Part shown: piece after piece, positions 14,645-15,016 of the stretch
Layout: each line of letters begins with the position of its first letter
How positions within the stretch are numbered: position 1 is the first letter of the stretch
Source: an uncultured Erysipelotrichaceae bacterium
GTDB taxonomy: Bacteria; Bacillota_I; Bacilli_A; RFN20; CAG-288
Direction: 5' to 3'
Assembly: GCA_902773085.1 (NCBI GenBank)
Contig: CACYDF010000095.1
Span: 1 to 33,135 of the forward strand
Length of the DNA: 33,135 bases
Translations under genes and position numbers: made by a program
The notes under the pieces: model-generated
Seen by the model: only the letters and a program-made list of their open reading frames with translations
What the model was told of the DNA's origin: nothing
Database searches by the model: none

Positions 14645-14876
14645 CTATTTTATCTTGATTAGGAAGAATAATTGGTGATGTTTATAATTAGAGCTACTTT
14701 TAACTTCTATTGGAGTATCCTTCCCATTAAACTCTATTACAAAGTCAAGCTAACCTTCTTTAAACATTCTTCTATAAAAAAGTTTTTCCAACCTGTCTTG
14801 CACCAGTAACAAGAAGAGCTTGTTTGCCTTCTTTAATCCATGAGGTAATTTGATTTTCTTTTTTCCACCAAAGCAT
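14645..14876 (-). pseudogene. Relic of an AAA/DUF4143 (COG1373-type) ATPase gene
   Basis: On the minus strand an ATG at 14876 opens a 34-codon frame containing ALLVTGARQVGKTFL, the P-loop typical of COG1373 ATPases, then stops at 14772. Shortly after, in another frame, comes LDFVIEFNGKDTPIEVKSSS, the C-terminal nuclease-like ending of the same family, closing at 14645. The roughly 300 residues normally between them are absent. The gene is therefore an internal-deletion and frameshift relic. Intact members are common in gut bacteria; their role is poorly known. A 33-bp repeat lies just upstream of its start. Confidence 0.8.
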
Positions 14877-14917: not shown

Positions 14918-15016
14918 TTTTGTAACCTTTTTCGTATTACTTTGGGCTTATTTTGTAACCTTTTTCATAGTTTTTAGTGCTTGTTTTGTAACCTTTTTCG
15001 CTTTTATCTCGCTTAA
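14918..15016. repeat. Three tandem 33-bp units with a conserved 16-base core
   Basis: TTTTGTAACCTTTTTC occurs at 14918-14933, 14951-14966 and 14984-14999, exactly 33 bases apart, each followed by 17 unlike bases. The period is a multiple of three and also near three helical turns. On the minus strand, toward the ATPase relic, one frame reads EKGYK at the same place in each unit but contains a TAA between the second and third copies. It could be the coding remains of an 11-residue repeat or a protein-binding array before the ATPase gene. Confidence 0.85.

Follow-up and report, generated by a model that had tools for sequence, protein, structure and literature searches.

Three direct repeats in a 33,135-nucleotide stretch of DNA from an uncultured Erysipelotrichaceae bacterium (contig CACYDF010000095.1, positions 1 to 33,135; hereafter the window) are probably what remains of the control region of an AAA_14/DUF4143 ATPase gene, now dead, and are part of a widespread pattern in which genes of this family carry an array of short repeats upstream of the start codon. 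Across this family the spacing of the repeats follows the clade of the protein and not the genome in which the gene resides. The reading that we favour, and regard as probable, is that each such array is a promoter-overlapping recognition array that may be bound by the ATPase it precedes and that would hold the transcription of that gene low.

On the minus strand of the window the core GAAAAAGGTTACAAAA occurs as three exact 16-nt copies, at 14984..14999, 14951..14966 and 14918..14933 in the direction of the relic gene, that is at -123, -90 and -57 from its ATG, with spacings of 33 and 33 bp. These positions are canonical for the class (the copies at another locus, L115, stand at -125, -92 and -59). 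The whole of 14918..15016 (minus strand) is a putative operator or recognition array of the ATPase gene, as judged from its class membership and from a self-match score of 31.5 at a lag of 33, which 0 of 500 dinucleotide shuffles reached (shuffle maximum 18.5). A first-pass annotation of the window, made from its letters, had described three 16-base cores at exactly 33-bp spacing with differing spacers, and this description is borne out. The class is defined here by direct repeats at a spacing of 32-34 bp in the 180 bp that precede the start codon, and the window array, at 33 bp, falls within it; its core is private to its gene, all 3 exact copies in the genome being those of this array; at two mismatches there are 12 further sites in the genome, versus 7 for a reversed control pattern. 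Clustered regularly interspaced short palindromic repeats (CRISPR) are near-identical, about 23-50 nt long and separated by unique spacers, and a CRISPR array was rejected here: only 16 nt are identical, and the whole 33-nt units are 73-79% alike.

It is scarcely credible that the periodicity reflects chance, a microsatellite or the relic of an 11-residue coding repeat, and for the class as a whole such an origin is not tenable. The number 33 is a multiple of 3, and the first-pass annotation had read EKGYK from the core on the minus strand; that frame does exist in each copy, but it is broken by a stop between the copies, and the shuffles just described do not reproduce the array. Stops occur in all three sense frames in 29 of the 63 strong arrays of the relic's clade (WK, defined below) and the repeats are therefore not coding repeats in general, while their position upstream of the ATPase start is class-wide.

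The gene that the window array precedes begins with an ATG at 14874..14876 (minus strand), which reads ATGCTTTGGTGG and translates as MLWWKKENQITSWIKEGKQALLVTGARQVGKT. An N-terminal piece with the Walker A motif (14763..14858, minus strand) is 53% identical to residues 6-37 of L096 (E 1e-7), the intact AAA_14/DUF4143 protein of the window's own genome that served as the reference for the alignment. A C-terminal piece in another frame, with a stop (14672..14779, minus strand), is 50% identical to L096 residues 356-391, in the PD-(D/E)XK-like region (E 7e-8), and about 318 codons are missing between the two pieces when measured against L096. Neither piece reaches the Pfam cut-offs, AAA_14 scoring 18.4 bits where 27 is required and DUF4143 giving no match. 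With both ends aligning to L096, the gene is, on these alignments, a remnant of an AAA_14/DUF4143 (PDC-S01) gene and not a working member. The best BLAST matches of its N-terminal piece (L096, L098, L085, L103) are WK-clade proteins, and the relic was assigned to that clade.

Three clades with arrays can be told apart by their N-termini: WK, with RK...WK...GARQ or GARR..GK; PK, the second, with GPK.CGK; and RR, the third, with KVITGIRRCGK. Repeats were detected by comparing each upstream region with itself, which gives a self-match score for each lag. The score thresholds (13, 11 or 17) were chosen after inspection of the genus set; the sets from the phylum, viral contigs, plasmids and Bacteroidales were assembled afterwards and serve as independent tests. 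Genes of the phylum set were picked by protein score alone in 245 genomes, the genomes of the other-phyla set were reached via the loci of a search for the GGTTAC core, and 180 neighbouring genes of the genus served as controls, reused for the RR clade. Two WK rows (L226, start misparsed; L182, upstream sequence too short) and three PK rows (L012 and L029, start misparsed; L301, short upstream sequence) were dropped before the counts, and loci L195, L230, L256, L261, L316, L356, L379, L387 and L390 lacked a parsable gene. The motif filter missed 5 of 30 loci in one set; 4 of these 5 were recovered later, all 4 at 32-33 bp.

Across the genus, phylum, other-phyla and IMG/VR sets, 76 of 109 WK genes have repeats at a lag of 32-34 with a score of at least 13, and the best lag falls at 32-34 in 93 of the 109. 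Shuffles reach a score of 13 in 4 of 545 cases, at scattered lags, and the threshold is reached by 6 of the 180 neighbouring-gene controls, 2 of which are the same arrays seen from a divergent neighbour. Within the genus 27 of 35-36 WK genes reach the threshold, all at 32-34 bp and each with a repeat sequence of its own; the corresponding counts are 23 of 27 in the phylum set (at lag 32-34), 14 of 28 in other phyla and 12 of 18 on IMG/VR contigs, and a separate Bacteroidales sample gave 10 of 28 at the threshold and 20 of 28 by best lag. Arrays on plasmids, with scores of 11-19, support the spacing with lags of 32 (Acinetobacter baumannii), 33 and 66 (Glaesserella parasuis), 33 (Parabacteroides distasonis) and 66 (Bacteroides pMMCAT), 66 being twice 33. 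In the PK clade the repeats are 23 bp apart, in 43 of 44 genes (shuffles, 3 of 220): 16 of 17 genes of the genus reach the threshold at 23 bp (or 22, 24, 46), as do 29 of 29 in the phylum set (one of these, from the window's own genome, also being counted for the genus) and 6 of 7 in IMG/VR. RR genes often have two distant and often palindromic copies, commonly 71-77 bp apart; 18 of 28 in the phylum set score at least 13 (lags 62, 71-77, 81, 85 and 92) versus 9 of 180 controls, 23 of 41 in the genus reach a score of 11 versus 24 of 180 controls, and viral contigs are weaker, with 7 of 19 at a score of at least 13 and two of those at 39-40 bp.

The dependence on protein rather than genome is plain within the window's own genome, where all 8 parsed WK genes have repeats at 33 bp or twice that and both PK genes at 23. 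In a tree of 95 proteins a single branch separates each of WK, PK and RR from the rest (support values of 89, 100 and 99, respectively). Three changes of spacing label occur on this tree, one of them being a single odd row. Inverted repeats are not enriched (score of at least 12 in 2 of 35 WK and 0 of 17 PK genes, versus 12 of 180 controls), and no direct repeats were found in the 6 genes of a further PVTLITGARQ clade. DUF4143 genes are present in 15 of 15 genomes of the genus, and the one archaeal genome reached gave no DUF4143 match (0 of 1). Copy number swings within the genus, from 18 matches in the window's own 1.2-Mb genome (G000) and 28 in a 1.9-Mb relative to 1-3 in several others.

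The first-pass annotation had proposed a conserved, GTTAC-containing element before COG1373/DUF4143 ATPases of gut Firmicutes. This is borne out, beyond what was proposed, for spacing and position, as the WK counts demonstrate, but not for the GTTAC sequence, the cores being gene-specific. The pattern search suggested there, for the core at 33-bp spacing, told against the sequence: it returned 48 stretches in 84,980 genomes, 0 of 48 with a DUF4143-family reading frame. Many of these stretches were microsatellites of AAGGTTACA, repeats within coding sequence or, in promoters of Oscillospiraceae, sites spaced 11 bp apart. The double GGTTAC core was not found in the 22 other genomes of the family searched. 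GTTAC repeats of the kind proposed do precede such genes, as GTTACAAA-containing 33-bp arrays in one Bacteroidales genome (L234, L239), but the phylum named was the wrong one. A separate set of loci from metagenome-assembled genomes of Oscillospiraceae and other Clostridia (L037, L047, L049, L064, L065, L066, L071) has GGTTACA direct repeats, several about 11 bp apart, upstream of promoter-like sequence, and several of them share a conserved leader GGAAATC...AAATCCTCC; we take these to resemble OmpR/PhoB-type regulator sites of some regulon.

In the strong WK arrays the number of copies ranges from 2 to 5, with 3 the commonest (35 of 63 arrays), and many of these arrays are placed within or just upstream of predicted -35/-10 boxes, which are consensus predictions only. 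Between orthologues of different genera the cores are kept nearly letter for letter while the spacers drift (L115, L117 and L208, for example, from three genomes), and with this footprint-like conservation the WK repeats look like binding sites at promoters. A-rich cores placed at about three helical turns beside predicted promoters could also act through the shape of the DNA, as phased A-tracts or an UP element, rather than through recognition of their sequence. This we judge very improbable, for the cores of L098, L115 and L104 are not simple A-tracts, and it is the cores and not the spacers that are preserved between genera. A comparison of L115:1118 with L089:2633-2760, both in one genome (G002), shows one isolated copy of a repeat that is private to one ATPase gene upstream of a different AAA ATPase gene on another contig, with some matching flank; it may be a relic or a trans site.

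Several observations suggest that the ATPase is the likely reader of its own array. Protein identity and repeat similarity are correlated in Mantel tests (0 of 999 permutations for 67 WK genes and 2 of 999 for 36 PK genes), and the only segments that remain significant beyond overall identity correspond to L096 residues 241-270 and 256-285 (familywise 8 and 28 of 2000). An AlphaFold2 model of L096 is confident (mean predicted local distance difference test score, pLDDT, 89.5) and its fold, mainly over residues 1-320, matches the archaeal AAA+ ATPases 2qen (Z 16.0) and 2fna (Z 15.3); it also matches 2qby, the structure of Cdc6/Orc1 bound to DNA of an origin, with Z 11.2 and a Foldseek E of 7.8e-8, and resembles CED-4 and plant nucleotide-binding leucine-rich repeat (NLR) proteins. 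On our reading of the model, the co-diverging segment (L096 about 241-285) would lie in the winged-helix part of the fold. In the C-terminal domain E341, E365, E380 and K382, which we take to form the PD-(D/E)XK motif, are invariant in 14 of 14 sequences, and in 50 sequences the three glutamates are at least 90% conserved and K382 is invariant; these residues fit the PD-(D/E)XK nuclease superfamily. The intact relatives match Pfam AAA_14 and DUF4143 and PADLOC PDC-S01 (L096, E 5e-169; L011, L021; L085 in PADLOC only).

The repeats could instead be operators of a different host regulator, with the ATPase gene as a mere target, and we regard this as unlikely. Cores vary within one genome while spacing follows the ATPase clade, and this would require every gene to have a regulator of its own. 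The similarity of the repeats goes with that of a segment of the ATPase, and the unit of exchange, to which we now turn, contains only the array and the ATPase gene.

Pairs of DUF4143 genes that are 78-98.5% identical and reside at different loci have, in 13 of 27 testable cases, homology that is limited by the array and the stop codon, starting 40-230 bp before the start codon and ending at -10 to +15 of the stop; the same limits are seen in 0 of 25 pairs of other genes, although these control pairs are few and partly from the same loci. On this comparison array plus gene behaves as one moving unit, and the suggestion of the first-pass annotation that the element is mobile-associated is supported. 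A unit on pMMCAT (L392, NZ_CP072253), reaching from -134 to stop+5, replaces the HipA genes of a hip operon, as judged against a Bacteroides thetaiotaomicron plasmid (L401, NZ_CP103120). Direct duplications bracket the unit in 25 of 203 genes versus 5 in an opposite-strand control (by clade 15/125, 3/42 and 7/36 versus 2, 0 and 3, the third clade being represented by genus genes only); examples are about 170 bp of the 5' end of a host gene (L153) and 75 bp on a Glaesserella plasmid. Three ATPase genes of one Bacteroidales genome (L224, L234 and L239, genome G292) are flanked at both ends by the same repeat array, its two occurrences being oriented alike. At L404:955-2187, on a plasmid of Acinetobacter towneri (NZ_CP114602), a divergent ATP-binding protein of the GVRRSGKS type is encoded beside the array-bearing ATPase; no clear direct repeat precedes this second gene at lags of 12-60.

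These exchange data invite a further explanation: array plus gene would form a minimal mobile element, a one-gene cassette with the array as its recognition end. Its ATPase/nuclease-like product would recognise the array in order to move or home itself, any effect on transcription would be secondary, and the example in the window would be a dead one. We consider this possible but doubtful. The unit-limited homology, the replaced HipA genes, the excess of flank duplications in each clade and the doubly bordered genes all speak for it. A classical transposable element was rejected, however, as there is no fixed-length target-site duplication: lengths lie between less than 20 and about 170 bp, and in one case the target is replaced, so that no fixed signature of transposition emerges, and the small, partly linked set of control pairs also limits the argument. 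A clean empty site with both flanks joined was not found, plasmids included. At the window the best flank match (12 nt, score 9) is at chance level, being reached or exceeded by 86 of 100 shuffles, and the PriA-flavoprotein synteny of the window is not kept in the other members of the genus that have the flavoprotein (10 genomes), and therefore no empty site can be read there.

The favoured explanation, self-recognition at the promoter, can be set out as follows. An intact gene has 2-6, mostly 3, copies of its private core at a clade-fixed distance, at about -170 to -20 from the start codon, where they overlap or abut the predicted -35/-10; the geometry is 33 bp (about three helical turns) in WK, 23 bp in PK, and two copies commonly 71-77 bp apart in RR. 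The ATPase, predicted to be a STAND (signal transduction ATPase with numerous domains)/Orc1-Cdc6-like AAA+ protein that combines a winged helix with a C-terminal domain of the PD-(D/E)XK-like type, would bind its own repeats cooperatively through the winged helix, and the fixed spacing would be set by the packing of the protein along the DNA. The promoter would thereby be kept low until a trigger, phage infection for example, releases repression, and private cores would avoid cross-talk among the many paralogues. More tentatively, and with less than even confidence, a DUF4143 (PDC-S01) ATPase and its private array may represent a new kind of minimal mobile unit, whose winged helix would read the array both to keep the ATPase silent and either to distinguish self from non-self or to bring about movement, whose private specificity would let numerous copies share a genome free of cross-talk, and whose three geometries (23 bp, 33 bp and two copies some 75 bp apart) would be three packing modes of the same ATPase on DNA.

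Several points weigh against self-recognition at the promoter. Of the 109 WK genes 33 fall below the threshold (17 with the best lag at 32-34 and a score below 13, 16 with the best lag elsewhere), and some genes are therefore without a clear array or have decayed copies. The ATPase of the window is dead, so that binding there could come only from a paralogue, and the core of the nearest one, L096, is different. The correlation behind the co-divergence is weak, with a rho of 0.24, and was computed on genes preselected for having arrays, and the winged helix is assigned from fold matches and helix positions. Promoter positions are consensus guesses, the best-scoring of which is often not locked to the last repeat.

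By their PADLOC name these ATPases are candidates for phage defence. PDC-S01, a PADLOC candidate system (AAA_14 plus DUF4143; COG1373), is the same family as the intact relatives of the relic. A 2026 survey, in the portion of its text available, ranks it fourth in frequency among prokaryotic defences, gives its make-up as an ATPase fusion with PD-(D/E)XK, counts about 29,500 bacterial and 10,000 archaeal copies, and regards most such candidates as still awaiting experimental validation (PMC12988326). That portion of the survey does not mention upstream repeats, clade-specific spacing or an array-plus-gene unit (PMC12988326), and upstream repeats were likewise not described in titles and abstracts on DUF4143, COG1373 or PDC-S01 in open-licence PubMed Central, an earlier mention elsewhere being possible. 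The family is thus very common and we found no demonstrated function for it. If each gene does carry its own recognition sequence, the DNA target of every member would be readable from the genome, and binding, specificity and release could be tested at once, with the array of each paralogue as a built-in negative control. The spacing classes would give a physical prediction for the assembly of the protein on DNA, and an array-plus-gene unit would explain the spread of these genes and their pile-up in small genomes.

Parallels with known systems are instructive. Archaeal Orc1/Cdc6 initiators bind repeated elements near their own gene, and the modelled ATPase L096 may share their AAA+ plus winged-helix fold (2qby, as above), although the archaeal ATPases 2qen and 2fna are closer in fold to L096. 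Unlike these initiators, the ATPases described here end in a PD-(D/E)XK-like domain, are both numerous and divergent within small bacterial genomes (the 18 DUF4143 matches in 1.2 Mb) and have arrays at promoters with clade-fixed spacing. Self-controlled replication genes that bear iterons have private direct repeats at fixed spacing that are read by the winged-helix product of the adjacent gene; the gene-private, evenly spaced arrays resemble these, whereas the ATPase units, unlike iteron systems, are dispersed over chromosomes and plasmids. The nearest working analogy is RptR, which, in the part of the report available, acts at three direct repeats overlapping the promoter of a defence island and thereby represses its own promoter (PMC12255303), an arrangement at a defence gene set much like that of the arrays here. 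As described there, RptR is a separate 9-kDa repressor that reads one conserved 6-bp palindrome (PMC12255303), whereas in the DUF4143 genes the cores are gene-specific and the suspected reader is the ATPase itself.
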